This document shows, in pieces, positions 22,375 through 47,996 of a stretch of 64,000 nucleotides of DNA. Both the position numbers and the translations under genes were made by a program. The stretch is from Macrolepiota albuminosa. Lineage: Eukaryota; Basidiomycota; Agaricomycetes; Agaricales; Agaricaceae. Location: assembly GCA_027475525.1 (NCBI GenBank), contig JAMWFC010000118.1, positions 121,173 to 185,172 on the forward strand, read 5' to 3'. Position 1 is the first letter of the stretch, and every line of letters begins with the position of its first letter. Under the pieces are notes generated by a model, which did not search any database, was not told where the DNA came from, and saw only the letters and a list, made by a program, of their open reading frames with translations.

Positions 22375-25300
22375 ATGTCTACTTTTGATTCTTCTGCCCT
22401 TCGTAATTTCCTGGCTAAGGCCTCTTATTTATTTGATCGTGCTGATGACACCCAAAGTTTGGTCAGTAACAAATATAGCAATAGTGTTACCGTACCAAAA
22501 ACTTGCATTGGGCACGCTAAAAGTGGTGTGGAGAGTTCCGGGCAGGTCCCAGAGAACACGCCTATGAAAATAAAGTAAAGTCGGAAAAAGGTTGGCAAGT
22601 GTCAAGCACTAAGGCAAAAGCGCTTAGGAAAAAGCGGTAAGTGAACATGGCAATGTAAGTGGCAAGAACACCGTAAGCTTAGCGAAGTCTAAGCAACGTT
22701 AATGCCTGCTGTAGCTGCAAGGCACGAGTGTGTTGAGTGTCAGCGAGAGTCTGCAACTGCCGATAACTTTGACGTTGCCGACCATAAATGAGATTTGGAC
22801 CGTAAGGTAGACTGGAGTAAGGGGAGCAGGAAACTCTGTTCTTTGTTTTTTATGTACAAGTCGGTAAGTACTTTTTATACTACAAGGAGTTCACCATCGC
22901 CAGTGACTAACCATTGCCAAGGTGCGGTAAACTAGAAAATTTTATAGGGGTAGCTCCAACGGTTTCAGATCCCTACCATCTATTCAAAAACCTTAGCGAT
23001 GCCAGGCAGCAGATCGCGATGCTAAATCATCAATCCATCACCCTTCTGTCTGTCCAAAATGCTTCGCTATGTCAGGTGCCAGATTGAGGCGCTAAGCGGT
23101 GTCAGACGCCAAGGTCAAACACCAAGCTGTCCGTCAGCTTTTGATAGATCGTCAGTCCTCTTTCCAAGCGCTGTTGTCAGTGACTGATGCCATCTGTCAG
23201 TTGTCATTCTTGCTGCCATTGGTGCTATCATTGATCAGATCTGCTTCTTGCCATATGCGGCCATCAAATATTGCCAAAATTGGTTAATTAGCACGCACTA
23301 AGGTATCCCGAGCCAGTGCCTCGTTGCCGTAGCCTGCCGTTGATGCGCTGATCCTGTATGGGGTCCTATCAGCGCCAAGTCTGTTGGTCCTGCCAATGTG
23401 CCACAAACCATCCCTGGAATCATGCAGCTATATCAGTGGTGGCTCGTGGTCTGCAGCTCCAACAGTTCCTGGGTGCGGGGCGTTGAGGTTTGCGAGTGGT
23501 GCATGGCTTGGTACCGCAAATATGAAGGTGCCGATTGGTTGCAGCCGTTCGTGGACTTGTTCATAAGTTTTAGGTTTGATTTTGGGTTTGTGGCGCTAAG
23601 GTTCAATGCCAATGCCAGGCTCCTTCTCTGTCCAACGAGATCGACGCCCTGTTGGCTAGTACTGAGGTTAGCGAAGTAAGTCTCTCCTCTTTTCCCCACG
23701 CCTCCAAAGTTGACTTTGAGTAGTCGGTTGCTATGTCGCCTACCATTGCCAGTCTTTCTAGTGCTTTGTCGGCCTCTACCATCCCTTCTGCTGCTGCCTT
23801 TCCTCTGGCTCCTCCCTCTTCTGCTTCTGTCCAGCCTCCTCCTGTCCTTGGTAGTCCTTTTTGTGGTAGTGCTTCTTCCGCTCGTACGGCGCCTCCTCAT
23901 TTGGCCATCAAACGAATTGCCGTTTCCTCCAGTGAGCCTTGGCCTGGACCCACCCATACTATTTCTTGTCTCTTCCCCTGTAACTTTGCTGTTGTTATTG
24001 AACGCGCACCTCCTGCATGCGCTAGCCCTCCTAAACGTACCGTGCATCCCTTGCTTTCATGCTTCTAATCTTTTGCTCACTGTGCTCCCAGGTCAATCTC
24101 CCTGCTCGCATTGCCCCTTTTTATGTTGTAAGTGTTTCCTTTTAAGATCGCTAGACTTTAGCACCTGATCGTGCCCTTCTTAGGTGCCCAACCAAACTAT
24201 GTTTACCAACGCGGAGCTTTGTGACTTGTTACGCCTTTGCCGCAACACTACCGTTATTGATACCGGCCTTCCAGCTGGTGTCCAAGTACTCGGCGCTAAG
24301 AAGAAGGTTACAGTTGTGCCCGTGGAGCGTCATGCTTTTAGGGCAAAGATTGGCACAGTAAGTAGTTGTTCGTCCCTGATAGATTGATGACGTCGCTAAC
24401 TTCTTTCTTAGTGTGATAAATGTTGGTCTGAGAACAATCCTGAGGGCTGCTGGTTTCCTACCGCCTCTCTTCCCTGTTACCGATGCGATGCGCTAAAACG
24501 TGGTTGTGCCTTCAATGGGATTTGTACTCGTGAATGCGGTAGGGATGCTATCATGCAGCGGAATTTCAAGCGCACCGTCCTAGTTTGTAACGCCCAGGCC
24601 TTTGTGCTACAGCAACGCAATTTAGCAGCCATTTACCAGCCCACTGTGATTAGCGCTGCCAGCCTGGCGCTTCCCATTACTCAGGATGGCACCACCGTGA
24701 CGGCCCCCTTCACCCGCTCTTCCCGTCATCCTATTCCCTTGAAGCGTAAGCCTATTGTTGCCTCTCCTAGCAAGAGTCCCAGTAAGCGCTAGGAGCTAGC
24801 GCCTGCTACTCCCATGGTATTGTCTTCCACTGAGCCGTCTACTGATAAAGGGGAGGATACTGAGAGAGACACTGAGGGCGAGGATGATGATGAGGCTGAG
24901 CCTGTAGTTGATACTGACGCGCTGTTGGCGGTACATGCCCTTCTGCTTTGCCTTACTCCCCCTATTGCCGCTAACCCTTATCAGAGCAGCCCTAGTGGTA
25001 ACTGGTGCGTAGTCCTTGTGTTTTACTTTTAGTTGCGCTAACTTCTTCTTTACCAGGTCCCCTACTCCTTTGCTTTCCATTGTCATGGATATCCCCCCTG
25101 TCGAAGATGTCGTGATGTCTGTCGCCAGCGCTACCCCTGCTCCTGAGGCTGCGGTGGCTAGCGCCTTCCCCATCGCTCTTCCTATTACCCTGTCTCTTAC
25201 TCCTCCTCGCAGCCTTTCTTCCTTCCCCAGTACTTGCGAGTCCTCTACTGTGCCTGAGTCCAAAGGAACTTTAGTGGCTCAGGGCGAGCGCCATCGCCAT

Positions 25301-25788
25301 TGGAGGTACTTGTCCTCTTATGACGTTCACCTTTCCTCCGTCCAGACTATGTCCCCAGGCGACAAGCGCCATGAATAGACTCCTTGTGCTCCTGTAACCG
25401 TTTGAGTAAGTCTGCGCTTATTAGCCTCTTCTCTCCTTCTCTGATCGCCACTAAGTTCGATCCCTTCTGGACTCCTCCTCCCACTATGTGTGTTTCCGGC
25501 AATGCCTACCCTTGGCTCGGGGACGAGTTCTCTTATCCCATTATCCCCCTTTGGCCTGCCACCAATCTCTGCCAACAACTCTGCTATATCGAGGACGTGA
25601 CTGATGCTGTTGGGAACGAACTCGCCATGCTGTGTCCTTATGTTTCTACCTTAGCATGCCATGAGCTCCTCCTCCTCAAGCTTCACGATGACATCACTGA
25701 TGCGCTCGAGTGGCAAGCGAGTAACGCCATTCAGGACAGGGACTTGCTTCCTTTGGATGACCCCACTCCTTTCAAGTCTGATGCGTAG
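22375..25788 (+). pseudogene. El1 antisense gene: cysteine-cluster protein (aORF), interrupted
   Basis: Lies on the strand opposite to El1 gag-pol. It starts MSTFDSSALRNFLAKASYLF and is cut after 22442 by solo LTR D. Removing the LTR plus one 4-bp duplication gives an open frame into QLYQWWLVVC...VCEWCMAWY...GADWLQPF (to about 23566). Later exons: a Ser/Pro/Ala-rich part (about 23733-24120), TMFTNAELCDLLRLC (24184-24360), then, after a GT-AG intron, CDKCW...CWFP...CYRCDALKRGC (24413-24786). An acidic linker and a C-terminal block follow (AYPWLGDEFSYPIIPL; DALEWQASNAIQDRDLLPLD). A homologous gene is in El3. One in-frame TAG (24790) and the LTR make this copy defective. I do not recognise the protein; the Cys cluster suggests zinc binding. 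Confidence 0.75.
22443..23371 (-). mobile_element. Solo LTR D (El3 family) inside the El1 antisense gene
   Basis: 929 bp, the reverse complement of the El3 LTR type (TGATAGGACCCCATACAGG at one end, TTTGGGTGTCATCA at the other). The target duplication is GTGC (22439-22442) against GCGC (23372-23375), one transition apart. Excision restores the antisense reading frame. Confidence 0.9.
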
Positions 25789-25900
25789 TTGCTGGCCCAT
25801 AGCGCCCCGTTCCTTTTCTTGGACCTTTAATTGTGTAAGCGGTTGATATGTAGTTTTTGATGTAGCCTTGTATCCAAATAAACACTCCCCCCTTTCCTGT

Positions 25901-26133
25901 TGTAGCGTAGTCCGCTATGTGGCGTTGGCCACATAGCTTTACTTACTGTAGAGTAGTCTATATTATATTATATTTATTATAATATAATATTAGTTTACAT
26001 TATTATAAATAGTTTTACCAGCTGCTTACAAAGCAGCTTAATTTTGTTGTATACTACATTGTCAATAGACCGGTCTGGTCTGATTCAGTGTGGTGTGCAC
26101 ACAGAGCTCTATAAACTTTGTAACTTGGTTACA
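25901..26133 (+). repeat. El2 5' LTR
   Basis: 233 bp, TGTAGCGTAG...GGTTACA. It includes a palindromic AT-rich core (TATTATATTATA / TATAATATAATA). It is nearly identical to 51532-51764. Confidence 0.93.
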
Positions 26134-26185
26134 TTTTTTTGAATCTGCCAGCTAGGATCTATTGCCTAGCATCTGATGTCAGTCG

Positions 26186-26425
26186 CTGAGTTCGTTGACA
26201 GAACTCTATCAGCTTCTCGAGCTTCTTGCACAGCCACACCGTGCAAATTTCAAACAGGGGATCTGAGTTCGTTGACAGAACTCTATCAGCTTCTCGAGCT
26301 TCTTGCACAGCCACACCGTGCAAATTTCAAACAGGGGATTGATGAGTATTGACAGAACTCTATCAGCTTCTCGAGCTTCTTGCACAGCCACACCGTGCAA
26401 ATTTCAAACAGGGGATTGATGAGTA
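26186..26425. repeat. 77-bp exact tandem duplications #3 (two overlapping events)
   Basis: Period is 77 throughout: 26186-26262 repeats at 26263-26339, and 26272-26348 repeats at 26349-26425. This is El2 leader sequence and not coding. Confidence 0.9.
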
Positions 26426-26433
26426 ATCCCATA

Positions 26434-28039
26434 CAGTGGCTCAAAAAACTGTCCCAATGTTTCATACTTTTTGAAAGATGACATTGGCATGAAGGATGGG
26501 AAGTACATAAAATCCTGATTAAATCATGTAAAATACTATGGCATCGTAGCTACAAATTGAATCTAAGTTTATGTAATCAAGATCAAAACTGATGGAGCAA
26601 TAGCCATTTTAAAATATTCACTCATTGGGACAGTTTTTTGAGCATCTCTAATTTTAGTATCTAGTACTTTGTATGTCCTCTATTTGCTTTGATAACTGCT
26701 TGAATCCTTCTAGGCATGCTTTCTATTAGTCTTTGGCATACCTCTGGTGGTATTTCATCCCACTCCTTTGCAACCCTCTCCCATAATTCATGCACACCAT
26801 AAGGAGGTGTTTCATACTGCCTAAGTTGCTCTTTGAGGTACTCCTAGAGATGTTCAATAGGGTTGAGATCAGGGGATTGGGCTGGCCACCAAAGGACATT
26901 AAAGTTGCTGTCCTCAAACCACTTGTCAGCCCTCTTGGAGTTGTGTTTGGAGTTATTGTCCTGTTGAAAGTAGTGGGCACCCTCCTCCATCTCCAACTTT
27001 TCAAAATTCTCCTTTGCTCCATCATCTAAAATTTCAGAGCACTGCTCTGCATTCATGATCCCCACCACCTCTACAAGCTTTTCTACCTCATTCCAACTCA
27101 TACAGCCCCATACCATGAGATTATTCCCTCCTCCATGCTTCACAGTAGGTGTAGTTGTTCAGTCTGAAATGTCTTCTTCTTGTAGCTTCCACACATACTG
27201 CTTCCCATCTGACCCAATCCTGTTAATCTTTGTCTCATCTGTCCACAACACCCTTTTCCAGTCCTCTATAGTCCAGTTCTGATGCTTCTGAGCCCATTTA
27301 AGCTGTAGTTGTCAATGTTTAGCTTTGAGCATAGGAACTTTTCTCTTGGTAGCAGACCAATACCCCTCCTCCTTCAACACATTCCAGACAGTCTTGGAAG
27401 AGACAGGGTTGAAAATGATGTTGTTGATAAAATTAGTGGCCTGGACAGCTGTATCAAGTCTTCCAGTTGAGATTTGTCGAATAATAGCCTGTTTATCACA
27501 TGGAGTAAGCTTAGCAGGACGGCCTCCAGGATGGTTTTCCTTGTCCATCTCCAACTCTCTACTAGTCCTCCCAGTAGTAGACTTCCCTAAACCAGTTTGA
27601 GCCCCAATCTGACCAGAGAATACCCTTAAGCAAGAAGAGAAGCAACAGTAGAGTGTTGTGCAAAAGGAATAGGTTTCATGATAGTGGTTGAAGGTCAAGA
27701 TGTGGTTCAACCAGCTTGAACTACTCCCAAATATATCTAAACATGGTCACATGACTTTGTTTATATTCCCACATGCAACCTACTCTTTATTTCTGAGTAA
27801 AATAGGGATAAACCTGAAAAATTAGAGATGCTCAAAAAACTGTCCCAATGAGTGAATATTTTAAAATGGCTATTGCTCCATCGGTTTTGATCTTGATTAC
27901 ATAAACCTACATTCATTTTGTAGCTACGATGCCATAGTATTTTACATGATTTAATCAGGATTTTACATACTTCCCATCCTTCATGCCAATGTCATCTTTC
28001 AAAAAGTATGAAACATTGGGACAGTTTTTTGAGCCACTG
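26434..28039 (-). mobile_element. Tc1/mariner element with ~220-bp inverted repeats
   Basis: Starts CAGTGGCTCAAAAAACTGTC and ends with its complement, flanked by TA on both sides (26432-26433 and 28040-28041). The terminal repeats extend about 220 bp inward. Each ends internally with a second, inverted copy of the 21-bp GCTCAAAAAACTGTCCCAATG motif (about 26626-26646 and 27831-27851). Confidence 0.92.
26661..27710 (-). pseudogene. Tc1-type transposase (two nonsense mutations)
   Basis: The N-terminal HTH region has GGRPAKLTPCDKQAIIRQIS. The DDE domain has VLWTDETKINRIGSDGK, YFQQDNNSKH and SPDLNPIEHL, so the DD34E residues are visible. TGA at 27312-27314 and TAG at 26844-26846 each replace an expected Trp codon (KHW and EHLWEYL). 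The protein would otherwise end ANRGHTKY at TAG 26661. The copy is dead but recent enough to align without gaps. Confidence 0.88.
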
Positions 28040-28047
28040 TACCTGCA

Positions 28048-31000
28048 GTGCCCACTGACGGTGGGCGAAATGCCCATGACCTATGGGGAGACCCAGCAGA
28101 CACCCAGGACGCGTCAGCGTCCAATGTGGGTCAGGTAAGACCCAAGGCTCAAGACCGAGGTCAGAGTACCGACCTAGCCAGGAATGAGAGCGAGGCCCGG
28201 AGAGCTGAAAGCTCACAGCAGGACGGTCCGCAACGTCTCCAGGACAAGATGCCCGGGGGATTAACGCCCCCAGTTACGCAGCTGCCAGAAGGACCACGAC
28301 GGTCTAGCCGATTGGCTTCCAAAGGACCCCCGGAGGACGGCCAACAGTCAACCAGCGCCTATGGCACCCCAGGAGACGCCGAGTCGTCAGTACGGACTGG
28401 GAGAGCCCTCCCTGCAAGCCGGAGTAGTGGGACCAGGTGGTCCACCATGGGCTCAATGCCTTTTAAAATGGTGGAAGCCCACATAGAGGAGGTATTGGAG
28501 GAGGCTGCAAGGCCTGAAGTATCCCGCACGGAAAACCGATTTCCATGCACACCAGCAGTGGAGGAAGCTCCGGAGGTTGTAGAGCTTCCAGAGGAGGTGA
28601 TGGAGTTGTCAAGTGACGACGACGCCGGAGCAGAGGAGCAGCGGCTGAAAACTGCGTACACCGTGCGCTTGCGGGTGTTCTGGGACTTGCACCCAGAGGT
28701 GATGAAATACACCACCCAAGCGCGACTCGAGCGCTACGTGTCAGCCCATATAGTAGCACTTAGGCGACAAGGGCACGAAGTGCCCAATGTATTCAGTACA
28801 AAATATACTGATTTAATGGTGAGAGTGCTCACTATGGAGCTGCAAATGTATGTGCAGCGTAAGGCCACACGGCAATCGGGGGTCTCGACCCCCTGGAGCC
28901 ACACGTCCAAGGAATGCTCGGCACGACGCAATCAAGACGTCGGAATCGAGCTAGTGGAGGCACTAGCACGGGTGCAAGAAGTGCCTGAAGTAAGACCGGT
29001 GAGTACTTTTTATACTCCAGCAGGACAAGGGTGGCGTGAGGAGCCCCCACACATGCGTAACCATGACCGTAGGACAGATATGTCAGGTCCGGATGGGCAC
29101 GATAGTACCGTGCTCAAGGTGGAGAGCGAGGCATCTGTGATGCCACACATGCCCATGGCCGACACGTTGAGCGACAGAGTCGTGTATCAACGTATGCGCA
29201 ATGGCGACCTCAGGACTAAGGGACAGTCCCTTATTGACAATCAGGGCATCATATTTGAGGGCACTAAGCCCATTGATGAGATGCGTCGTCAATTCGTCAC
29301 ACAGGGTCAGAAGAATCAAGCTTCTCCAGTTCCAGGGCGGCACAACGATCATGATCGAGGAGACTTCCTCGATCGAGATGGCGCCATGAGATGTGATGTC
29401 CCTGGTAACGGCCGGGATGACAGCCCTAGGTTGATTCCTCAAGACGAGGGCAATTATGCCCACAGTCAAGGAGGCTCGGGACGTCCTCCGCAGGGTGGAC
29501 GAGGGAAGTCACTTCCCCATGCCGCTGATTTGGCGACTAGATCCCCGGGTCAGCGGGAGGCCATTCGAATGCATCGTGAAGCCATGCACAATTGCCTGCA
29601 TCGAGTAGTCGATGATGCCCTGGGTGTAACCTTACGGTTACCAGATGGAGTGAAGCTGCATAAAGCAGACAGTAGGCACATTCGTGCCTATACAGGCGCG
29701 TCCAAGTTCAGCGACCTGGAAGATTGGGCGATGGATGTATGCACCCATCTCGCCATGTGCTTATATGGAGGCGACTGTATGGAACGAGAACGAATCTTTG
29801 TTCTTCCTGAGTTCTTAGTCAGAGAGGCCATGGGATGGTTTTGACGGGCAGTACTGCATGTCAACCGTGTCCAATATGACTGGACATTTAAAGGAGTCCT
29901 TACAGGACTGTACAATCGATTCGTACACCCCTCAACGCTCCAGGATGCAAGGCGGGACTTCCAGTCCGCCAAGTACACCGAGAAGTTGGGAGTGCAAGGG
30001 TTCTATGATACCCTTAATGACCATGCCCAGAACATGGCAGTATACCCAGATGGGTATACAATGCTCGAAACGTTCTTGGATGGCATTCCAGCAGACATGC
30101 GCCGCTATTTGATACGTGAGGACGGATTGTCCCCAGAAGTCAACAATGTAGAAGAGTTTGTGGCATATGCCATCAGGTATGAGCAGTCTCTGAAGACTGC
30201 TAACCACTACGAGCATCGGAGTGGACACAAAGGAGGACCCAGGCGACTACCGCCTGGTGGGACACCCTCACGGGATCAGCATGTGGGGACCTTCCTGGCC
30301 AAAAAGACTGATTTGGACCGTGACTGCAACACGCGGTTTGTTGTATGCAGAACTCCTGCAGTGAACCGAGAGCAGAGCCGCCCACGCCCAGATCGGGCGC
30401 CGGACAGAGAACGTTGATGACGCCAACTGTGGTTGGGTGCGCTGGACGTATATGCAGTACAACGCCGTCTCCAGCGCTTAGCGTGCGTAGTTGTGAGGAG
30501 TCCTGACAGGGTCCCGGTGTGCTCGAGTGGAGGTAGTAAAACGATGCGCTAGATTATAGCGCTTCGGGGGCTACCTGGCAGACGGTAAGCGTCGTAGTTT
30601 AGGCAAAGATATTGGAGAAAAGACGAGTAGCGCAGCGTATTGTGCCCGTAGGTGGCACCGTAAACGATGAAGACGAGATAGACAAAGCTAGCGCCCGACT
30701 TAGTGACGAAGTCAAAGGAAGCTAGCGCGAGTTGAATGCTAAGTGTAACTGTGTGTTCGAGGGGTTACGATTCGTTGTTATATACATGTAAAGTAGCTAT
30801 TTTATATACTATGCACTACCGTGTTTGTCCAGATACAAGTCCACCTGCGGCGCTACCTCCTAGCGCCTCTCCTCATGGTTTCCTCTAACGGCAACCTGTC
30901 AATGGCAACCTTTTGCACATGGATGACGGCGACCAACGGCGTTCTGACCCATGGCGACCAGCGGCGACTCTATATTGGCTTAGAATTGCATGAGTCTGCT

Positions 31001-31657: not shown

Positions 31658-31686
31658 GTGAGTGAGTCCATTTTAACTCTTTTCAG

Positions 31687-32478: not shown

Positions 32479-35314
32479 CTGGGCCGGCGCAGAGTGCCGG
32501 CCGTGGAGGATGTGGAGGAAGAAGTGCAGGCTATGCCTGGACTGAGCACAGACCACAACGTGGTAATGATGAGTGAGGAGGAGTATCAAGCCTCCAAGAG
32601 AAGCAACGAGCCAATAATCGCTCCTGATGTTCAAGGCACAAAGCCTCCAGACAAGCGCCATCGAAAGGCGAGACAACGGGAGGACTCAGTGGATGTATGT
32701 CCACCTACGTCCTCACGAGTCAAGTTGGAAGACTTGAGAGACAGCATCCGAGAGGCGGAAGCCTTAGGAGAGGGGGACACACGGTCCCTATGGGAGCGAC
32801 CAGCCCCCTTGCCGGAGTATGACTGGGCATACGACCCCCGAATGCCGCAAAAGTGGAACGAGCTGGTGGCAGCCACGTGTGCGTGAAATGCACACCAGAG
32901 ACGGATGATTGTCAACCCAGCGTATCGCCAGCCAGCCTCAGACAAGGTGTCCGTAGCGTACTCACTTGTACGTGAGGGGAAAAGCCTCGTGGCTTATAAG
33001 GCAGCGGCAGCGGGTGCTCCGCTGAGACTACATATACCCAATGACAGTGTCAATCGGGTGCTTGCAATGCGCGAGCAGTATGCACCGCCACCTTGGCCAC
33101 CCTCAGAGACAGTGGAAGTACTTTTCCCGGTACGTATGAAGGGGAAGCAGAAGGCGACAAGCCTTCGTGAGGAAGATATTCCTTGGTTGCGTCAGCAATG
33201 GCAAGAAGAATTTGCCGACATGGTCAGAAGGCGACAAGCCTTCGTGAGGAAGATATTCCTTGGTTGCGTCAGCAATGGCAAGAAGAATTTGCCGACATGG
33301 TCAACGGGACCAAGGAGGAGCTGAGGAAGATATTCCTTGGTTGCGTCAGCAATGGCAAGAAGAATTTGCCGACATGGTCAACGGGACCAAGGAGGAGCTT
33401 CCACCATGGTGGGAGGTGAACCATGAGATCAATCTCATAGACGAGAGCAAGCAGTATAAGTACCACTTGCCACGCTGCCCACACGCCCTCCAGGAGCAAC
33501 TACGCGATAAGACTAATTGCTATTTGAATGCTCAATGGTGGTCCCCATGCACCACCGCTCAAGCTGCACCATTATTGTGCATCCCGAAGAAGGATGGAAC
33601 CCTTCGAACAGCTCTTGATGCACGTCAGTGCAATGACAACACCATAAAGGATGTAACTCCTTTACCAGATCAGGAGGTGATCCAGGAAGACGTGGCTCGG
33701 GCGAAGTATCGCTCGAGGATTGACCTTACTGACGCTTACGAGCAGGTGCGCATTCGCACCAAGGACATACCCAAGACCGTATTTGCATCGATCATGGGCA
33801 CATTCACAAGCAATATAATGCAGATTGGAGACTGTAATGCTCCAGCAACTTTCCAGAGGCTAATGACCTCGATCTTCCGAGACGTAATAGGACGTTTTAT
33901 GCACATCTACTTAGATGACATATTCATCTACTCAGATTCTATGGAGGAGCATGAGCAGCACCTCAGAGTTGTATTTGAACGACTGCACAAGTACAAGTTG
34001 TACTTGAAGTGGAAGAAATGTGAGCTCTACGCTCAGAGTATAGACTGCCTAGAGCATGTCATTGATGAGCGGGGTATCCACCCCGATCAGGACAAGCTCG
34101 ATTGCATTCGGGAGTGGCGAACGCCCTGAAACTACAATGACATCCAACGGTTCGTTGATCTTGTCAACTACATATCGAGCTTCTTGCCCGATGTCACAGC
34201 CTATACTGGGCCACTTATGGCCATGACGCAGAACAGGTCACCATTCAATTGGAGGCCGTTGCACCAGCGGTGCTTCGAGATGGTCAAACAGATCTGTACA
34301 AAGACTCCGGTGATTCGACCAATCGACCCTAGACAGGATGAGCCAATATGGCTCATTTGTGACGCGTCCAAGACAGGCGTCGGAGCCATGTATGGTCAGG
34401 GAAGCAGCTGGCAGACGTGCCGCCCAGCAGGGTTCATGTCGAAGAAGTTCACAATGGCCCAGCAAAACTATGCGGTGCATGAGCTGGAGACTCTTGCCAT
34501 ACTCGAGGCCCTCCTCAAATGGGAGGATAAGCTGATGGGATATCCCATCCACATCATAATGGACCACAAGGCCCTTGAGTTCTTCAAAACTCAGGTGAAC
34601 TTGTCGCTGCGTCAGCGACGGTGGATAGACTACATGTCGAGATATCAGTTTGACATCACCTATGTTAAAGGTGAACTCAACAAAGTAGCAGACTGCTTGT
34701 CACGCTACTTTGAGAGTGATGTAGTTGGGGAGGCTCACGAGCCTCATGAATATGTGCAGGCAGACTGCCGCATAGACCCTGATGGAGAGGATTTACCTCT
34801 CCACCGATACCAGGAGCTCAGGGAGCATGTACTGGATGTACGCGCTATGCGTGACGATGAACGGAGGCGAAGCACTCGCCTCAGGGAGCAGCGTGAAGAG
34901 CGGGATGTAGCCGCCCAGTTGCTCAAGGAGCATGAAGCTGTGGACCCGGCGTCTACTGGGGAGCACGAGCACCCCAATATACCTGTTACGCTTGCGGAGA
35001 TGCTCGAAGGCGAATTGCCTTCATCCCAGCCCCCTAGCCTGGTCAACGACGACTTCCAGAAGGAAGTGGTGCAGGACTATGGCGATGATTCTCTCTTTGC
35101 CGAGATACTCGCCAATCCTGACGACCATCCTCGGTTCAGGCATGAGCCTGGTGGACTGATCACAACGGAGAACTGTCAAGGGGTGGCAGTGGTATGCTTC
35201 CCCCGTACGCGAACCATTATTATGCGGGTCTTGGACCAGGCCCATGCACTGGTGGGGCACTTTGGTGCCGCCCGGACGTTGGGCTACATCCGAAGATGGT
35301 ATTGGTGGCCACGT
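32479..35314 (+). pseudogene. El2 RT, RNase H and start of integrase
   Basis: Same frame as the protease apart from stops and a false shift at 33149-33398. RT motifs: PLLCIPKKDGTLRTALDAR, SRIDLTDAYEQVRI and the catalytic YLDDIFIYSD (about 33907). RNase H: LICDASKTGVGAMYGQ, HELETLAILEAL, IIMDHKALEFF, NKVADCLSRYF. Then the integrase zinc-binding start HALVGHFGAARTLGYIRRWYWWPR, cut at 35314 by El3. TGA codons at 32884 and 34127 (the latter in TP*NYNDIQRF, where family members have Arg) break the frame. Two extra 77-bp copies account exactly for the frame change. Confidence 0.88.
33149..33398. repeat. 77-bp exact tandem duplications #4 (two overlapping events)
   Basis: 33149-33225 repeats at 33226-33302, and 33245-33321 repeats at 33322-33398. 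Removing 154 bp puts the El2 pre-RT frame and the RT frame in phase. Confidence 0.92.
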
Positions 35315-36272: not shown

Positions 36273-36295
36273 AATTGGAGCCCACCGCGAGGGAT
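36273..36295 (+). promoter_or_regulatory. El3 primer-binding site (probable)
   Basis: TTGGAGCCCACCGCGAGGG follows the 5' LTR after two bases, and the same sequence with one transition follows the El1 5' LTR. It begins TGG, as expected for a tRNA 3' CCA end. I could not assign the tRNA. Confidence 0.6.
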
Positions 36296-36302
36296 CTCTA
36301 GG

Positions 36303-39057
36303 GCAGAATTCTGCCAGAAACCCGTCTCCAACGTAGGCGCTGCCTGCTAGACCAGTCGGCAGAAGGCATAGCTCCTTCCCACCCATCAACTCCACAACCA
36401 CCTGGTGCCTTACCGGGTCTCTCTCTTGCACAGGAACTACAGAACGCCACTGTAGACGCATTTCCTGATCTCTTCCCGCATTCCCTCGATTATAGCGCCG
36501 ACGACCCCTTAGCGTCGCCCTTTACCGTACCGCAACCAATCACCCCAATTACTCCGCTAACGCCTCTTTCTCAACTCATTTCGCTTACCCCGTCGCCAAT
36601 CTCTAGAACCCCTTCCCCACTACCGCTAACCAAACTCGCTAACACAGTCGCTATGGAACAACAAGTTCAGCGCATGCCACCACGTAACCACTTCTCGGCA
36701 CCAAAATGGGACGAGTCCAAGCCACAGGAGCTCTCCCAGTATTTCAAGGAGTTGGAGTATTTATTCAGAGATTGTAACATTACCGACCATACACAGATGA
36801 AGGAGTACGCGGCAAGATACGTATCATATGACACGGCAGAGACATGGACAGGTTTGACCGAGTTTGCCGCCTTTGTTCCTGCCGCCCCACCTGTTCCAGC
36901 CCAAGGCGCTTCATATGAGAACTGAAAGACGGCAGTGATCCAGTTGTACCCTGGCGCAGAGGAGGCTACCCGATACTCAGTAAACGAGCTGCAGAAACTA
37001 GTACAGGAATCATTCGACAGTGGCACATCGTCCTTGGTGCATTCTCCACGTATTACCGCGAATTTCAAAAGATCGCTAGGTGGTTAGTACAGAACGGCAA
37101 GCTATACATTAACGAGGAACGTCGCCTATTCCAACAAGGCATCCCGACTTCGCTTTGGACTCGCATTGCTCGTCGCCTAGAGATAGTTCACCAGGCTCAT
37201 CACCCAGACGAGCCCTATAACGTTGCCGACGTCTTTGAAGCCGGTAAATGGGTTCTCAAGGGAACGGACACTGGCGTTGGACTGCAGCGCGCTAGGACGA
37301 GCCCACCACCTGAGCGAACTAACGGTATCATTCCCATCCCGCCTCCTGTTGCCGACTTCGTTAAGAAAGAGGAGCTCAATGCTGCAATTACCGCCGCTGT
37401 CGCTTCCGCTATGACTCGTATTGAAACCATGATTACCACCAACCTCACTGCTAACCAACCCGCTAACGTACCCGCACCTGGCCCTTGCCACTTCTGTGGG
37501 GAAATTGGCCATACCATGACTAGAGGACGCTGCGCGACTTTAGAAAACTATATTTGGCAAGGAAGAATTCGACGGGCTATCGACGGCAAGATAGTGCTCA
37601 CTACTGGCGCCATCATTCCCAACTACCCAGACAAGAAGTCTTTCCAGGAACAAGTTGATGAATGGCATAGGCGCAACCCAGGACAAATCGTTACCGGCAC
37701 GCTTTCTGGCAATGCCAACCCCGACCCTGAACAGGCGACCCAACAGCAAATGGTTCACGAGGTCTTACACTTTGACAGCATTGGCGACCATCCCACATTC
37801 TCGCGAGAAGAACGTATCGCCAAGCTCCAACAGGAGTTGGATTCGCTTAAGAATCAGGTCTTTGATGGGGTTGAAGTTAAGCAGCCTAAACAACCTCTTA
37901 AAGGATACAAGCCAATGCCTCTCGCTAGCAAGCTACCGACTCCTGCTCCTACCGCACCGCCTGCCACTACCCCTGCTACCGCTCCAGAACCATCGTCGTC
38001 CGCTACCGCTCCTGAACCGCCCTTGCCGCCTCTCCATCCCTACTCAGGGATTCCTGACCGTTATCACGCACCAGCACAACGAAACTTTGCCGCTCCCGAG
38101 AAACGTCCTGAGGGTGGCTACCGACCTACCGCGCCAATATTTGACATAGAGAAATCCAACCACGTCTTTAACTGCATCATGAAAACCAATGTTACCTTAT
38201 CAGTTGAAGAGCTTTGCAGTATTGCTCCCGACGTCCGCAACCAAGTCAAGACGGCAGTCACTCCTCGACGACCCTTGGCGACGACCGTTGCCGAGGTCGA
38301 GGATCTCGACAATGCGCTCCCTGGTTTTTCTGTTACCGTCGATTCGCTGGACGCTGAAGATTCTCCTGCCGACCCTATCGCTAACGCCACCTCTGTGGAC
38401 CCAGTGGAGACCTATCTTAGGTCAGTGGACCATGGAGAAGACCCCGCAATCCTTACCGTCGCTCAAGAATCGCACGCTATTCGCTCAGTAGCGCTAACAG
38501 TAGACAATAAGCACGAGGTAGAGGCAATCGTGGATAGCGGTTCTCAAATTATTTCTATGGCAGCTGAAGTCGCTAACGATCTGGGCCTTATTTACGACCC
38601 TACCGTTATACTAAACATGCAGAGTGCTAATGGCACAGTAGACCGATCCCTAGGCCTCACCAAGAATGTGCCGTGCACCCTTGGCGACATCACTTTTTAC
38701 CTTCAGATACACATTTTGCGATCACCGGCATACGATTTACTTCTCGGCAGACCCTTCGACGTCTTGGCGCAATCAGTCGTCAAGACTGTTACCGACGACG
38801 AGACAACTTTAACGATTAGCGACCCCAATTCCGGAATCCAACGAACGGTGCCAACATTCCCTAGGGGACAACGAAAAGGCGCCCGCGCTAAGCCCCCGGA
38901 GTTTACTGACCAACACGCCAACGAGCCTCCCCATTCCCTAGGGGACAACGAAAAGGCGCCCGCGCTAAGCCCCCGGAGTTTACTGACCAACACGCCAACG
39001 AGCCTCCCCACCGGTGTTTTCACAGACCATCGAGGAGGTGATTGGCGACGATCACGG
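36303..39057 (+). pseudogene. El3 gag and protease
   Basis: N-terminal Pro/Thr-rich leader, then RMPPRNHFSAPKWDE...YFKELEYLFRDC, the start of the capsid-like region. TGA at 36923 replaces the Trp seen in El1 (NKWKKA) and a one-base shift follows near 37015. The frame from 37411 is open: zinc knuckle CHFCGEIGHTMTRGRC (about 37486), a Pro-rich linker, then the retropepsin IVDSGSQIISMAAEV (about 38530) and YDLLLGRPFDVLAQS. The end is confused by duplication #6. The order and motifs match El1 on the other strand. It is not functional as read. Confidence 0.85.
38855..39008. repeat. 77-bp exact tandem duplication #6
   Basis: Copies 38855-38931 and 38932-39008, at the gag/pol junction of El3. El1 has no such duplication. 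Confidence 0.92.
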
Positions 39058-39159
39058 AGATGTGGCGCTAACGCTGGAATATGACCATTCAACTGGTCTT
39101 GTAAATGTTATGTCTACTGCTTTTCTTGACGAAGACGTTTTAACTACTTTACCCGCTAC

Positions 39160-39313
39160 CGACGCAGAGCTTTCCCAGAAAAATCAAAACATTACCGACT
39201 CCTCTCTTGCCTACTTGTACCTTACCGCTTCTGAATCGACGCAGAGCTTTCCCAGAAAAATCAAAACATTACCGACTCCTCTCTTGCCTACTTGTACCTT
39301 ACCGCTTCTGAAT
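39160..39313. repeat. 77-bp exact tandem duplication #7
   Basis: Copies 39160-39236 and 39237-39313, in the El3 pre-RT linker. Confidence 0.92.
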
Positions 39314-39465
39314 CCTTTTAAAATATAGCGTCTACCGATACTTATCTCACTACTCTTCCCGGAGCCTCGTCTCCTGCCGTTCTTGGACTTGCCGCCCCTC
39401 AGGCTACAGTTCCCCTTTCCACTTCTGTATATAACCAAGCTAACGCTCCCAAAAGGAAAGGGGTA

Positions 39466-39619
39466 CAAGTTAAAAAGAAATATAAGCCAGTTGCGCTTAA
39501 AACAAAACCCGTCGCTACGCACTCTCCCAAGACGTTTAGAATCAAGTTAAAAAGAAATATAAGCCAGTTGCGCTTAAAACAAAACCCGTCGCTACGCACT
39601 CTCCCAAGACGTTTAGAAT
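39466..39619. repeat. 77-bp exact tandem duplication #8
   Basis: Copies 39466-39542 and 39543-39619. Removing one restores the alignment with El1 (FRIERxIIGxPLA). Confidence 0.93.
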
Positions 39620-41397
39620 TGAGCGCCAGATTATTGGCGACCCTCTTGCCGACATACCAACCTTATCACCGAATCCGTCACCTTTTCAGCCCACAGGACG
39701 TTTTACCACACAACGCCAGCAGCAGTTTGCCAAGCATGATACAGGATTTTTGACCAAAGATGAGTTGAACGTCCTTACCAATCTTGTCGCTAAGCAAGAC
39801 AAAGCCTTTGCTTGGGAGGACTCGGAACGCGGCAGTCTACATACAGACTTCTTCCTGCCTGTCGTGATCCCGACCATTCCTCACGTGCCGTGGACCGAGC
39901 ACAACTGACCGTTACCGCCTGGAATTGAAGCCGAGGTCTGCCAAATCATTAGGACCAAGATCAAGGCTGGCGTCTACGAACCCTCCAATAGCTCTTACTG
40001 CTCCCGATGGTTTTGCGTCCTCAAAAAGAACGGCAATCTACGCATAGTTCACAGTCTTGAGCCGCTGAATAGAGTTACCATACGACACTCTGGCGTACCG
40101 CCTTTTCCTGATCACGTTGCCGAGTCCTTTGCCGGGCACATTTGTGGCGCCACCCTTGACCTCTACGTTGGCTACGACAAATGCCTCATACACCCTTCTT
40201 CTCGAGACCTTACCACTTTTCAAACTCCGTTTGGCGCCTTGCGCCTAGTTACCTTGCCAATGGGCTGGACAAACTTAGTCCTTATATTCCATGACGACAT
40301 CACTTTCATCCTCCAACCCGAGATACCGCATAATGTCCTCAGCTTCATTGATGACGTTGGTGTCAAAGGCTCCAAAGACTGGCGACTCGTAAACGGCTTA
40401 CCGGCGACCCATCCCGAGAACCCCAACATTTGCTTAGCGCTATGGGAGTTTTTCTTGCTACTCAACCGAGTTCTCCAATGCATGAAGTATAGCGGTGGAA
40501 CCTTTAGCGGCCACAAACTCCTCTTATGCGCGCCAAGGTTCAAAATACTTGGTCACATCTGCACTCCCGACGGTCGTGTTCCCGACGAGTCTCGCTTAGC
40601 ACTCCTGGAGCGATGGGGTCCTTGCCGCGACTTATCTGAAGTTCGCGCCTTTCTTGGCACCGTTGGCGTTCTCAGGATATTCGTCAAAAACTTTGCCCAT
40701 CACGCACATGCCCTTAACCGACTCATCCGCGCCAACAAGCCCTTCGAATTTGGGCCAGACCAGGTCACTGCCCAACGCGACTTAGTAAAAGCCCTACAAG
40801 ACGCCAAACCCCTAGTCCCCATCGATTATACTTCTGCCAACCCTGTTATCCTGGCGGTGGATACCTCGTACATTGCCGTTGGTTACTTTCTGTGCCAGTG
40901 CCTTAGCGACAACCGGAAACAGCAACGCTACAACCGCTTTGGGTCTATTACGCTAAACAACAGAGAGTCTTGCTACAGTCAGCCTAAGCTAGAGCTCTAT
41001 AGACTCTTCAAAGCCTTCCGATCGCTAAAGATGTATTTGATTGGCGTGCGGAACCTTATTGTTGAAGTCGATGCTAGGTACATCAAAGACATGCTGCAGA
41101 ATCCCGATATCCAGCTGTCCGCTAGTATGAACCGGTGGGTAGTCGCTATCCTTATATTTCACTTTGAGTTGGTATACGTCAAGAGCTCTTTCCACGGACC
41201 AGATGGACTCTCTAGGCGACCACGGCAGCCCGGCGACCCGGCAGTGGATCCACAGGCTGATAGCGCTTTCAAGGACTGGATCGACCGCTTACATGGTTTC
41301 GTGCACCTCATACAACAGCCAATCCCCCTACTACGACGGCAACAGCCTGCCAGCATTCTTCTACATCCCATTGTCCCTTACCGCCCCGAGATCTTTA

Positions 41398-41551
41398 GCG
41401 CACCCCTCACATTCTACACGGCAAGCATCCTTGGACAAGACTTGCCTCCAGTAAAAGTCGTACAGGAACCTCATGCGCACCCCTCACATTCTACACGGCA
41501 AGCATCCTTGGACAAGACTTGCCTCCAGTAAAAGTCGTACAGGAACCTCAT
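41398..41551. repeat. 77-bp exact tandem duplication #9
   Basis: Copies 41398-41474 and 41475-41551, between RNase H and integrase of El3. Removing 77 bp puts both frames in phase. Confidence 0.94.
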
Positions 41552-42991
41552 CCGCTAAGAGAAGACAGCAGAAACCTGACCTACGACGCCGTTCCCCGAT
41601 CCGCCAAGGCAAAGGTGGAAGACAGTCGCTTGTTAATAGTTGAGCAATGGATACAAGACCTTAAGCGACCCCCAGACCTTACCGACAAACAATACGCGAC
41701 CTTTATCCGTTATGCCACCCACTTCTTCTTTACCGACAACTGCCTTTGGCGACGAAATCGAGATGGCGCTCACAAGCTGATCATCAAGCCAGAAAGTCGC
41801 TTACGAGTCCTGCGCGCCATGCATGATGAGCTAGGACATAGAGGTCTGTACGCTACCCGAGCCTCTTTGTTAGAACGATTCTGGTGGCCACACGCTAGCG
41901 CCGACATCGCCTGGTACATTAGGACTTGCCACCTCTGCCAAATCCAACAGACACGCCAAGTGCTCATACCGCCAATCGTTGCAACGCCAGCTCCCCTCTT
42001 CAGCAAAATCTACGTCAATACCATGCACATGCCCAAATCTGGTTGCTACAAGTACATCATCCAAGGTCGTTGCTCGCTAATCCACTGGCCTGAATTTCGA
42101 ATGCTTCAAAGAGAAAATACCGACGCAGTCGCCAAGTGGCTATTTGAAGACGTCATCTGCCGTTGGGGAGCGCTAAGAGAAATTGTCACGGATAACGGTG
42201 CGCCCATCATCAAAGCGCTAACATATCTCGCCAAGAAATATAATATCCATCACATTCGAGTATTGGGCTACAACAAACGTGCCAATGGCTTGGTAGAGAG
42301 ACCACACTTTGACGTTCGGCAAGCGCTTTTCAAGGCAGTCGATGGCGACAAATCTCGTTGGAGCGAAGCGACATATTCAGTGTTCTGGTCAGAGAGGGTT
42401 ACCATTCGTAAGCGCATGGGTTGCTCTCCCTATTACGCGGCTACTGGCACCCATCCTTTACTCCCTGCCGACATCATAGAAGCGACCTACCTTCAGCCAG
42501 CACCCAACAGTATCTTAGCGACTACCGATCTTATCGCCAGACGAGCCATTGACCTCCAACGAAGGAAAGAAGATTTAGAGCGACTCCACAAGGTAGTCTT
42601 TAGCGCCCGTCGCCAAGCGGCTTTACGATTCGAAACCGAGCATAGCGCTACTATCAAAGATTACAACTTCCCGAGAGGAGCGCTAGTGCTTATGCGCAAC
42701 TCCAAAATTGAAACCTCATACAACAAGAAAATGCGCCCTCGCTATCTAGGACCTTTGGTAGTTATCTCTCGTAACCGTGGAGGCGCTTACGTGCTCTGTG
42801 AATTAGATGGTTCAGTACTGCATCGACCTGTTGCCGCTTTTCGCCTATTACCGTATCTCGCCAGGGAACAAATTGACTTGCCGCTTGAAGCGCTAGATAT
42901 CGACACCGCTAAGCTTAGGGAACTTGAAGAAACAGAATTATTGGACGATGATGACTTACCGACTCTAGTTGAAGAAGAAGAAAATGATTAG

Positions 42992-43413
42992 AAAAGAATA
43001 TATTGATAAGCTCTCATTTTCTATTACTTACTTTACTTATCTTTCTTGCCGTTGCTTACCATACTATATCCAACAGACAATTCCTTACGTAGTTAAGTCG
43101 CAGCGCTAGCGTGTCGCCAACGCTTAGCGCCCTGCGCAACTCTCGCCAAGGGTTTTTCGCTATGATGATTTACTGAGCGTTTGCCTTTTCCTCAAAATTT
43201 GCCTAAGTCCCTCACCTACTACTCCTCTCGCTAAAACCTATCTTAGAGTACATGCCGCTTGCTTTCTCTTTGCTTTCTTGGCTCTGTGCTGTTGCGCTAA
43301 CTTAGACTATGGGACTTATCCGTTCACTCGACAAAGAAGCGGCAAAAGTATATAACGAAACAGGCGGTATCAAAAACTATACAGTAAAACGACCTATCTA
43401 CGCTAAGGTTCGT
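42992..43413. other. Spacer between El3 pol and the antisense gene
   Basis: About 420 bp between two convergent stop codons, pyrimidine-rich. No coding frame was seen. It presumably holds both 3' ends. Confidence 0.4.
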
Positions 43414-44270
43414 TTAATCGCTGTTATCATCCATGGGCAGAGAATCGTCGGAGATCGGCAAGGAAGAGTCGTGAAGGGGGAGCAGGTCGCCCGGCAAGAT
43501 ATGGTTGGCGGTCTGCCAATCCATAGCGGCTTGGCAATCGTTTTGGTAATCCTGCAGAACGTGTAGGCTGCGGCCCAAGTTGGAGTAGCGCAAGCGAAGC
43601 GCCATTAGTTGGCCACGTACTCGTTCCCGTTCTCGTTCCATGGAGGTCGCCATCGTTGCCGCCTGCCTTGAATACCGCTCTAGCATCTCGCGAGGATTGA
43701 GCGCTATGACCGGATATACGAGGTCCTGTCCCAGCCACTGGAAAGCGTCGCCAGTGACCGTCGGCTCCAGCTGAGGGGTCCAGGCAGGATTAATCCTGGC
43801 GATCACGGGGGGCCTTGGCTCCAAACCGGCAACGTCTTCGGGGTTGGACACCTCCCATGGGGCAACGTTACCGTAAGGAGGTAGCCAGTGCCACTCTGGC
43901 TCCTCTCTGGCGACTCCTGCCACTCCCTCACCCTCTCCCGCTACCACCTCCTCATCGCCTTTGCGCTGAGTCGCCAAGGTTTCATCCTCCTCTCCTTCAG
44001 CGTCCTCATCCCCTCCCGTTGCCGCCCCCTCTGCCTTCTCATCCCCCATCTCGACATCGGCGGGGGCTTCTTCCCACTCTCCCTCCTCCTGCTCCTCGCC
44101 AAGAGACCTCGCTGCCAAATGGATGGGCGACAGGAGGCCACTTGGGCCCGCCTCAGGATCACAAGGAGGCAGGCGACTTGCCGCCAAGGCCTTCTCCAAA
44201 TCGGCCATCTCGGTATCGTGAGGCGTTGGCGAGGGGGAAGGCGACGACGAGACCACGCGAGGACGTTTTG

Positions 44271-44424
44271 CTTTGCCCTTCCCCTTGCTTGGGGAAGGGG
44301 CTTGTCGTTTTTCTGGGACCGAAGTCCCTTGGCGCTCGCCGGCGCCTCTTTGCCCTTCCCCTTGCTTGGGGAAGGGGCTTGTCGTTTTTCTGGGACCGAA
44401 GTCCCTTGGCGCTCGCCGGCGCCT
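44271..44424. repeat. 77-bp exact tandem duplication #13
   Basis: Copies 44271-44347 and 44348-44424 within the El3 antisense gene. Skipping one copy joins the CDKCW frame to the downstream AKRPRVVSSS frame. Confidence 0.92.
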
Positions 44425-45730
44425 CAGTTGCCGACTGTTTCCGTCCCATCTCCTTGGCGTGTCGGCAATGCCAAGGAGGCACGTCCAATAACTGCCATAC
44501 CACCGGCAGCGACCTTCTTCTTCTGACCCTCCACAAACTCCCTTGCTCTCCTGACCAAAACAGCGCACGAAAACGTTTTCTTGACCAGAGCGTCTGGCGC
44601 GCCGCCACGCTTGCGACTCTTCGCCCCGTCGATAGTACAAGCGCGCTTGAGGGCGCCACAACGATAACACGGCTGGGCCCCAGTCGGGAACCAGCAGCCT
44701 TCTGGGTCGTTGTCTGCCCAGCACTTGTCACACTAGTGCTAGGAGTCAGCAAGAGACTAAAGGAGACAGAAAAGTCACTTACCGCTCCCCACGCCTCCTT
44801 AAACGCCTGCCGAGTCGCCAGGGAAACAGTCTTTTTCCCCTTCATCTCTTCCATTACAACCCCGGCCTCCTGCCCCTCATCAAGGACTGCTTCCTCCCGA
44901 CGTGGCAAAAGCAAACCTCTCAGTTCCTTGTCGTCAAAGGAACTTTGAGTTGGCGCCTACAGAAACTTAGTAATTCCAGTCTAAAAAGAAGAGTACCACT
45001 CACTGCGTATTGAGGAGCCGCCTTGCGACTCTGCAGATGTTGTTAGCAATCGTCGGCAACGGCAAGTGAAAATCAGCACTTACCTTGCGTTTGGAAGCAC
45101 CTGCCGGCTTCCTCGGCGAGCCCAACTTGCTAGCCGGCAGCACTGGGCTCAAAGTGCTGCCGGCGCGACCTACCTTGCCGGATCCCTCTGCTACCGCCTG
45201 CCTCTCAACGGCAGGCGCCTTCCCTGCAGCAACTCCCTCCATTTCCTCCGCCAACTCCCTGACCCGCTCCCGCTCCTCCAGAGCCCTGGTGATCTCCCGA
45301 GCATCCTGGGAGACTTCTTCTTGCCACGCCGCCAGCTCCTCAGCTACCTGCATCCGCGCCAAGGGCGCCAGCACCTCCTGTTTGCTGTGAGGAGACAAAT
45401 CAGACCAAAGCTAAGTCAAAGGAATGGGTTAGGAATACTCACTCTGCTGCTGGCGCGCTTACCGTCATCGGCAAGGCACCAGACAGAATATCCTCCAGCT
45501 CGTCCTCAATTGTTGGGACGGGAGGAGGCGCCTGGCAACTCGATCAGCTAGCGACACGGCAGGCAGCAAAAGCAACTTACGAAACGGGAGAAAGGCGCTA
45601 ACCACTCGGCGCCAAGATTGTCAACGTAACAAGCATGACACCACTCCCGCACTTCGATCTCACAATCCCACCCAACGCCAAGGACGCATACCTCGTACCA
45701 TTGCTCCAGAAGTTTCATCACGCCAACCAC

Positions 45731-46803
45731 TGATGACGCCCAAATTGCGCTAAGGTGCACTATCACTAGTACAGCTACTTAGTCAATATAGCTTTGGGCA
45801 CGCTAAGTATGGGAGAGAGTCCCGGACAGGTCCCAGAGAACGCACAGTAGGCAAGAGGTTGGTGGTAAGGAAAAGGGGAGATTGGCGCTTATTTAAGGCC
45901 CAAAAATGCGGCAAGAGTATGCTAAAAATCACCAATGTAAGGTGCTAAGAGGCGCGGGAAAGAGTCACCAAGGAAAGGCGCTAAGGAGCGCGAGAGAGAG
46001 TCGCTAAGGAAAGGCGCTAAGAAGCACGAGAGAGAGTCGCTAAGGAAAGGCGCTAAGAAGCGTGAGAGAGAGTCACCAAGGAAAGGCGCTAAGAGACACT
46101 GTAAAGGGGTCACTAAGAGGCGCTAAGTGTTAGCACCTAAAAGAGATGATAAAATAACGAGATTGCTTAGCAGATCTAAGCGCAAATGCCTTGCCGTAGT
46201 TGCAAGGCACTAAGAGATTGCAGACAGAAAGGGTGAGAGAGAACTAAAGCAGAGTCCCCTTGCCGACACGGTCAACAAAAGGTAGTCTGTTGCGTAGGGT
46301 GACCAAAATGTTGGGATACAATCCCTACTGCCAAATTGATTATTTACTACTAACAAAAAGTAAGTATTTATATGTAAGTAAATGCCCTGAATTAAACTAT
46401 ATGGTGAAGAAGTCCACAATCATGCTGTCAGTCTGAGTCGGCAAGAAGCTAAGCGACGTCAGGTGCTAAGGTGAAACTCCAAGCTGTCTGTCATAAAATA
46501 CTTCATCATTCCTACTGCCACCGGCTAAGAGCATCATGGGTGCCAAGTGTCTGTGTCCGTGTATGGCCCTGAAGGGTGAGTGGCAAGGTGCGGCAAGGTG
46601 TCAAGAGGAGTGCTAAGAATAGATGGTGCCATAAAGAGTGGTCCTGGAGTAATTAGAGGCTCCAGCTGCGAGTTATTAACATAAAAATATGCAAAAATTA
46701 GCCCCTGGAGCGCTAAGACGTGCCGCTCCTGGTGGTCCCAGTGTGCCAATGTGAAATGCTTATGTTGGCGCTATCTGTGGTTATCTATAATGGGAGCTCA
46801 TCA
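45731..46803. mobile_element. Solo LTR E in the El3 antisense gene
   Basis: 1073 bp with ends TGATGACGCCC...AGCTCATCA and a perfect 4-bp duplication CCAC (45727-45730 and 46804-46807). The left part resembles El1/El3-type LTR ends; the rest is its own family. Excision restores SQKLVVGVMKLLEQW in the antisense gene. Confidence 0.9.
45926..46106. repeat. 36-bp minisatellite within LTR E
   Basis: At least four tandem units of about 36 bp (GAGTCGCTAAGGAAAGGCGC plus a tail), starting near 45926 and clearest at 45962, 45998, 46034 and 46070. Units differ by point changes, unlike the exact 77-bp duplications. Confidence 0.8.
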
Positions 46804-47075
46804 CCACTAATTTTTGGGACGCCTCGGCGCCAACGCCCTCGATATGACGGATAAAATTGTTGGCCTTGGCGATATAGGCGTAGGCAGCTTCCTGGGCAGC
46901 CTGAGAGGGCACTGGGGGCGGAGTTGGAATACGGAAGGACATATTTTGATTTTTGAGCGCCAGGTAAAGATGGGGAGAAGAGGTGAAGTCCAAACTTATG
47001 CGCCAGGACTATAAACAAAATCTCAAGAACGCACGGACCACCTGTCACAAAAGCGGTAATGGTAACCATATTTGG

Positions 47076-47992: not shown

Positions 47993-47996
47993 ACGT

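Follow-up and report, generated by a model that had tools for sequence, protein, structure and literature searches.

A predicted spliced antisense gene and dispersed DNA words in two gypsy retrotransposon families of Macrolepiota albuminosa

Sequence comparison indicates that two related Ty3/gypsy families of long terminal repeat (LTR) retrotransposons in Macrolepiota albuminosa, El1 and El3, carry a gene on the strand opposite to gag-pol, placed after integrase and before the 3′ LTR and equipped with its own TATA-like region, which is not part of the LTR. Both families occur in a 64,000-nucleotide stretch of contig JAMWFC010000118.1 (assembly GCA_027475525.1, positions 121,173 to 185,172, forward strand), hereafter the window. 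Further loci, designated by L and a number (e.g., L012, L050, L071), were fetched from the same assembly (100 Mb, 129 contigs). Substitution patterns indicate that purifying selection keeps the antisense frame in both families. El3 also carries a dense word, TTRSCG, on both strands and kept by selection, and in El1-type DNA a distinct, related word, TAGCGC, is enriched. Because both window copies of the gene are broken, it was read from two intact relatives, L012 (El3-type) and L050 (El1-type).

Results

Structure of the gene in intact copies

The gene of L012 has 6 exons, introns of 48 to 58 nt, and a predicted product of 705 amino acids (aa); that of L050 has 8 exons, introns of 50 to 57 nt, and a predicted product of 712 aa. 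Donors in these two copies are GTAAGT, GTGAGT, or GTGCGT, and acceptors are AG. Aligned over their full length, the spliced products share 34% identity (BLASTP E 9e-83), a match which argues that this is not a chance open reading frame (ORF). Introns 1 to 5 are common to both families in the same order, though intron 2 differs in phase; in both, intron 5 immediately precedes the CDKCW exon.

A sequence-only reading of the window had proposed two multi-exon genes antisense to gag-pol between pol and the polypurine tract, and intact copies of both families bear this out. The protein motifs that it quoted lie in the window where it placed them, a GT-AG intron immediately precedes CDKCW in both families, and TATA-like sequence stands 5′ of the ATG outside the LTR (TATAAAA in El1, TTTATAG in El3). 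It was right about the intron position before CDKCW but counted too few, since five introns are shared in order and not one. It also recognized a multi-exon gene but drew it too small (6 or 8 exons and 705 to 721 aa in open copies), and it described real genes without noticing that both window copies are broken.

All 30 fetched El3-type loci have GT/AG at the ten splice dinucleotides that were aligned. The spliced frame is open in 21 of them (705 to 721 aa) if exon 4 may be either 27 or 30 nt long, and in 13 with fixed boundaries. Fully open spliced frames were found in 9 of 30 fetched El1-type loci; 15 of the 21 that fail carry an extra ∼75 to 80 nt in an exon, mostly 77-bp duplications. Genome scans for the gene gave 783 and 801 candidate places, and among the best 150 of each, which were scored with the window included, the matched stretch is stop-free in 142 and 140, respectively.

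Linkage to the element

Integrase matches at ≥95% identity number 87. Among the best 150 of the 783 exon candidates, a core exon lies downstream of integrase, 1,234 to 1,470 nt away, in at least 34 of these 87, and in 34 of 34 such pairs it is on the opposite strand. Thirteen loci were fetched from the 53 integrase loci without a listed exon; the gene is present in 11, while L074 retains a 29-aa remnant and L076 has no match to the gene. One element, L069-L070, has LTRs, a CCAG duplication, and the antisense gene between pol and the 3′ LTR. The gene thus appears, from these matches, to sit in most copies of the El3 type, the one for which prevalence was measured, and the absence from full-length relatives that had been named in advance as refuting did not occur.

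Selection on the antisense frame

For the first estimates of the ratio of nonsynonymous to synonymous substitution rates (dN/dS), loci with less than 90% coverage or ≥97% alike to one already kept were dropped, which left 18 of 30 El3-type and 14 of 30 El1-type representatives. The El3-type gene has a dN/dS of 0.14 and its cysteine core one of 0.04 (153 pairs); the El1-type values, whose rows still contain broken copies, are 0.26 and 0.07 (91 pairs). The other five frames gave 0.26 to 2.22 in the El3 set and 0.34 to 1.60 in the El1 set, and the lowest ratio among them belongs to a frame on the gag-pol strand that is a mirror of the coding frame and contains 2,803 and 2,131 stop cells.

These sets had been chosen as best matches to the window cysteine exon, which biases core dN low, and the test was therefore repeated mostly on integrase-chosen loci. 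The 10 representatives are 8 such loci plus L012 and L071; L074 and L076 were left out beforehand, and L075, L079, and L080 were removed by the 97% redundancy filter. Here dN/dS is 0.07 in exon 1, 0.03 in exon 2, 0.44 in exons 3 and 4, 0.15 in exon 5, 0.08 in the core, 0.26 in the linker, and 0.22 in the C-terminal block. The coding frame holds no stop cells, and aligned boundaries have GT at 59 of 65 donors and AG at 64 of 65 acceptors, the remaining mismatches being alignment slips, changes, or locus ends. The view that preservation of the protein motifs implies selection is upheld by these ratios (core 0.04 to 0.08), and values near 1, specified beforehand as the outcome that would count against it, did not occur.

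The gene as a hypervariable cassette

In El3-type elements, alignment shows the gene behaving as a hypervariable cassette. Between L069-L070 and L071, nucleotide identity in 250-nt bins is 92 to 98% in pol (a short first bin aside) and 95 to 98% in the LTR, versus 50 to 78% from about the gene stop to the gene start. Across the integrase-chosen set, the gene shows a synonymous divergence of about 0.5 to 1.1, and identity is 0.93 at 250 to 420 nt past the gene stop versus 0.66 in introns. Between El1 and El3, identity is ∼51% in gag, ∼74% over most of pol, and 34% in the antisense-gene protein. We infer that old alleles of the gene have been exchanged among elements with a recent pol and LTR backbone, e.g., by template switching. 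It is possible that assembly mis-joining contributes: L069 carries four 77-bp duplications, one of them near the end of pol. The cassette pattern has support beyond loci that carry such duplications, as L071 and 12 of the 13 integrase-region loci are free of them.

Dispersed words in element DNA

The internal region of L069-L070 (9,682 nt) contains 154 TTRSCG sites versus 23.1 expected from dinucleotides, 79 sense and 75 antisense, with a median spacing of 45. In the window, density is 11 to 18 per kb over El3 (35001-48000) and 0 to 9 elsewhere; the first 13 kb show no excess (22 versus 17.8 expected). El3 pol has 56 sites versus 11.3 (standard deviation, 3.1) in synonymous-codon shuffles (z 14.5), so codon usage does not explain the excess, and TTRSCG ranks first among the 360 permutations of its letters in pol. 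A 1,073-bp LTR-like insert in the window has 17 sites versus 1.6 expected, counted over 45730-46800.

In a comparison of three El3 pol copies, TTRSCG hexamers stay the same in 90.5% of cases and hexamers overall in 66.0%. Synonymous changes in pol are six- to sevenfold fewer inside the sites: 3.0 in 84.3 sites versus 152.0 in 729.3 outside for L071, and 3.0 in 84.0 versus 186.5 in 714.7 for the window copy. For three control patterns the drop is small or nil (the largest, 0.143 versus 0.205). Among antisense-gene loci chosen by hand for the comparison, TTRSCG is kept at 0.643 versus an average of 0.430 in 17 El3 loci, and TAGCGC at 0.629 versus 0.409 in 8 El1 loci.

Observed versus expected counts of TAGCGC are 12 versus 1.9 in the window El1 gag-pol, 13 versus 2.3 in the L072 gene region, 12 versus 1.2 in the L072 LTR, and 3 versus 0.5 in the window LTR at 60941-62009; TTRSCG in El1 gag-pol stands at 15 versus 9.2. 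Since L087, expected to hold the El1 pol of another copy, has no pol, the El1 counts rest on the window gag-pol and L072. In a control gypsy group of eight reverse transcriptase (RT) loci (L001-L008), TTRSCG has z scores of −0.2 to 3.0 over synonymous shuffles and TAGCGC does not occur.

Three other descriptions of TTRSCG were considered. It is not an LTR-specific word, being spread over the whole element. A word acting at the RNA level is not favored, the internal region being strand symmetric (the 948-bp LTR has 16 and 6). Spacing is no more regular than chance, with a fraction of 0.107 of random sets less variable.

The predicted protein

Three protein database searches, two of which scored the best 7,998 candidates by shared words and may miss distant relatives, returned 22, 26, and 37 proteins. 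All are from Termitomyces (T32_za158, T159_Od127, J132, and Mn162) and all are annotated “hypothetical protein”; several of these gene models join the same exons. These homologues suggest that the window comes from Termitomyces or a close relative; its genes and introns are likewise fungal in character. No Pfam family, Transposase_28 and Zn_clus included, matches over its cut-off, in keeping with the sequence-only reading, which knew no name for the family. Among top-ranked results in the open-access literature, no description of the gene in Termitomyces or basidiomycete elements was found.

We assembled 51 proteins, the two spliced products and 49 database entries, with partial gene models included. 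A six-cysteine pattern is kept in 31, several of the remainder being partial models; its spacing is 2-8-8-2-6 in 21 and was scored as 2-7-9-2-6 in 10. Stretches of basic residues resembling nuclear localization signals occur in 26 of the 51. For one protein, P0003, AlphaFold predicts an N-terminal helical domain (about residues 13 to 112), a long helix (129 to 192), a helix after the core (360 to 387), and a C-terminal coiled-coil-like helix (541 to 608), with low-confidence stretches between. The protein may be pictured as an N-terminal helical domain, a six-cysteine cluster that is likely zinc binding, a basic patch, an acidic and Ser-Pro-rich linker, and a C-terminal coiled coil.

Duplications of 77 bp

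Tandem duplications of 77 bp lie in the window at 18791, 21934, 26186, 26272, 33148, 33245, 35918, 38855, 39160, 39466, 41398, 44271, 48708, 50799, and 57935. Exact matching found 46 in fetched loci, all of period 77 and none at 14 other periods. The idea that they are intron-like mobile inserts was rejected, as they are tandem copies of local sequence with one period only. Joins over 77-mers are a common assembler setting, and the duplications are probably an assembly artefact; several frame breaks in the window El3 pol and gene therefore need not be biological.

Elements and gene copies in the window

The principal features are as follows.

35315-47992, plus strand: El3, a full-length gypsy LTR retrotransposon (LTR repeats, flanks, protease, RNase H, and integrase domains, and gag/pol tblastn)
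35001-48000, no strand: TTRSCG-dense stretch (per-kb profile; boundaries match El3)
43414-46942, minus strand: El3 antisense gene, degenerate copy, ATG at 46942 and stop at 43414 (modeled from intact L012)
22375-25788, plus strand: El1 antisense gene, degenerate copy (modeled with eight exons after L050)

The El3 LTRs lie at about 35315-36272 and 47112-47992, flanked by a 4-bp target duplication, ACGT. The El3 copy of the gene is made up of the following parts.

46804-46942, minus strand: exon 1, first part
45731-46803, no strand: LTR-like insert of 1,073 bp in exon 1, with GTGG duplications (4 bp) on both flanks
45581-45730, minus strand: exon 1, second part (EWCxACY..GAEWLAPF)
45443-45531, minus strand: exon 2
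45084-45384, minus strand: exon 3
45004-45030, minus strand: exon 4 (27 nt)
44783-44956, minus strand: exon 5
43414-44732, minus strand: exon 6 (cysteine cluster, linker, C-terminal coiled-coil block)

Its exon 6 has an in-frame stop after VGN near 44424 and is shifted in frame by the tandem duplication at 44271. In the El1 copy, the donor of intron 1 reads AT; its parts are given below.

22375-22442, plus strand: exon 1, first part
22443-23371, minus strand: El3-type LTR inside exon 1, flanks GTGC/GCGC (inverted repeats, ends)
23372-23562, plus strand: exon 1, second part (EWCxAWY..GADWLQPF), duplicated GCGC included
23619-23675, plus strand: exon 2
23724-24041, plus strand: exon 3
24092-24127, plus strand: exon 4
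24184-24357, plus strand: exon 5
24412-25004, plus strand: exon 6 (CDKCW cysteine cluster), with a stop near 24790
25057-25405, plus strand: exon 7, with a stop near 25375
25456-25788, plus strand: exon 8 (WLGxxxxYP..DLLPL block)

An El1-type gag-pol lies at 53988-60906 on the minus strand. Together with the El1 antisense gene it may have formed a single element, since broken in two by ∼25 kb of nested insertions, El3 included. The LTR pieces at both ends (21081-22230 and 60941-62009) are 91 to 97% alike, and the break shows a repeated piece of 233 bp (51532-51764 and 25901-26133). Elsewhere, a 603-codon open frame at 28033-29844 (plus strand) has no Pfam match (tested from 28048) and is followed directly by a second open frame at 29845-30417, gag-like by eye. 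A 722-codon ORF at 766-2931 (plus strand), with leucine-rich repeat matches, is a probable host gene.

Discussion

The reading that we prefer, tentatively and with considerable doubt, is that the protein is a nuclear, self-recognizing DNA-binding regulator or anti-silencing factor that works like VANC of the Arabidopsis VANDAL transposons. It would enter the nucleus and bind TTRSCG or TAGCGC words along chromosomal copies of the element; so bound, it would mark the element's own DNA, which would be switched on for transcription or shielded from host silencing. On the antisense strand the gene can keep introns, which do not appear as such in the sense genomic RNA. A fuller version, which we consider rather doubtful, is that each element has distributed, over all parts of its DNA and even at synonymous sites of gag and pol, the word bound by the zinc-cluster protein that it encodes antisense. 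The protein would coat and desilence its own family only, while its other parts diversify as an exchangeable cassette under an arms race between element and host. None of the roles suggested by the sequence-only reading is established. Control of transcription and a counter-factor to silencing gain indirect support from the dispersed, selected word, and a nucleic acid chaperone has no specific support.

Several observations weigh against this DNA-binding reading. The link between protein and word is a correlation, and the word was found post hoc. TTRSCG enrichment in the El1 gene coding sequence is weak (z 1.9). El3-type genes that differ from L012 at 27 to 34% of nucleotides sit amid the same TTRSCG sites, and specificity has therefore not tracked the divergence of the cassette. 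The eight control loci have 8 to 15 TTRSCG sites versus 4.3 to 4.5 by dinucleotides, mostly TTGGCG, and keep them at 0.897 versus 0.736 overall. The pol of L003 has a weaker word of its own, TCCCGG (21 versus ∼6.5; z 6.4, beyond codon usage), which is kept at 0.848 in the control group, and the 3.4 kb fetched after the L003 integrase region contain no match to the antisense gene. In this genome, gypsy elements may more widely carry dispersed family words, with a host factor as their reader. On the protein side, the canonical spacing of the fungal Zn2Cys6 cluster occurs in 0 of the 51 proteins, partial models included, with no Zn_clus match, and AlphaFold does not model the cysteine core with confidence.

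The control group and the constancy of the word while the gene varies both speak for a host protein as reader, acting in silencing, transcription, recombination, or integration, with the gene product separately countering defense through protein contacts of its variable regions. Against such a host reader, the strongly marked families here are the two that have the gene, each with its own word, and the 13 kb at the start of the window lack a TTRSCG excess; we regard it as unlikely, if a serious competitor. Slightly less probable to us is an RNA factor like Rev or CERV that exports or stabilizes unspliced genomic RNA, or a partner of Gag, with some other reader for the DNA word. CERV of the Caenorhabditis elegans element Cer1 is a nuclear accessory protein needed for export of genomic RNA, according to passages of PMC10309623, and basic patches with long coiled coils are compatible with binding to RNA or particles. 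The internal strand symmetry of the word fits duplex DNA, although this bears on the word only, and CERV is made from a spliced Cer1 mRNA that those passages do not describe as antisense.

It is also conceivable, at a low probability, that the antisense transcript matters and not the protein, with double-stranded RNA tuning copy number as proposed for plant antisense ORFs in part of PMC7264820; a dN/dS much less than 1, spliced frames that stay open, and conserved splice signals indicate instead that a protein is selected. A chance or relic ORF, which the breakage of both window copies might suggest, is scarcely credible in view of frame-specific purifying selection in two families, homology of the spliced products, and open frames. 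If the preferred link between word and protein is true, VANC-like recognition of self and non-self evolved independently in retroelements, and even synonymous sites carry family specificity. The pairing of an antisense accessory gene with a selected, element-wide DNA word opens its function to simple binding assays, and so variable a cassette suggests conflict with the host in a genome with hundreds of candidate copies.

Comparison with known systems

The cysteine cluster resembles the fungal Zn2Cys6 (Gal4-type) domain in having six cysteines with two CxxC pairs, followed by basic and coiled-coil parts. The Zn2Cys6 pattern (PF00172) is C-x2-C-x6-C-x5-12-C-x2-C-x6-8-C, whereas the commonest spacing here is C-x2-C-x8-C-x8-C-x2-C-x6-C. 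DUF3716 (PF12511) was matched partially by one of six 63-aa core pieces (E 0.019; 15.3 bits versus a cut-off of 22) and by one of 45 proteins at E 1.1; a search for it in this genome gave no match, and the same search matched none of its control genomes either.

Antisense accessory genes are already known as a kind, and the gene described here is a variant of that kind. Examples in Ty3/gypsy elements, termed aORF-3R, are gene23 of maize Grande, rice RIRE2, and Retand (TRP28) (PMC7264820; PMC11963269), as well as brtn of Botrytis Boty (Vicient review; PMC8365987). In the parts of these sources that we drew on, Grande is reported to have its own promoter and a nuclear product and TRP28 is suggested to bind DNA (PMC7264820; PMC11963269), and antisense accessory genes of LTR retrotransposons are given no determined function (PMC7264820). 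The layout is alike, with an ORF between pol and the 3′ LTR opposite to gag-pol. The gene here has no Transposase_28 match over the cut-off, and its five to seven short introns, hypervariable cassette, and selected element-wide word may set it apart. CERV is likewise an accessory protein that an LTR element encodes in a spliced mRNA and that is found in the nucleus, but it acts on genomic RNA and is not described as antisense in the passages cited (PMC10309623).

The likeness to VANC is an analogy by function, and homology is not claimed. In the sections of PMC5735166 that bear on it, VANC has conserved domains and highly variable regions, and the DNA of VANDAL elements is itself dense in a short motif specific to the family; conserved and variable protein parts and a dense family word are likewise found here. 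VANDAL is a plant DNA transposon whose motif, in the same sections, is mainly noncoding, in one orientation, and spread by tandem repeats, whereas the word described here lies on both strands, in coding and noncoding DNA alike.

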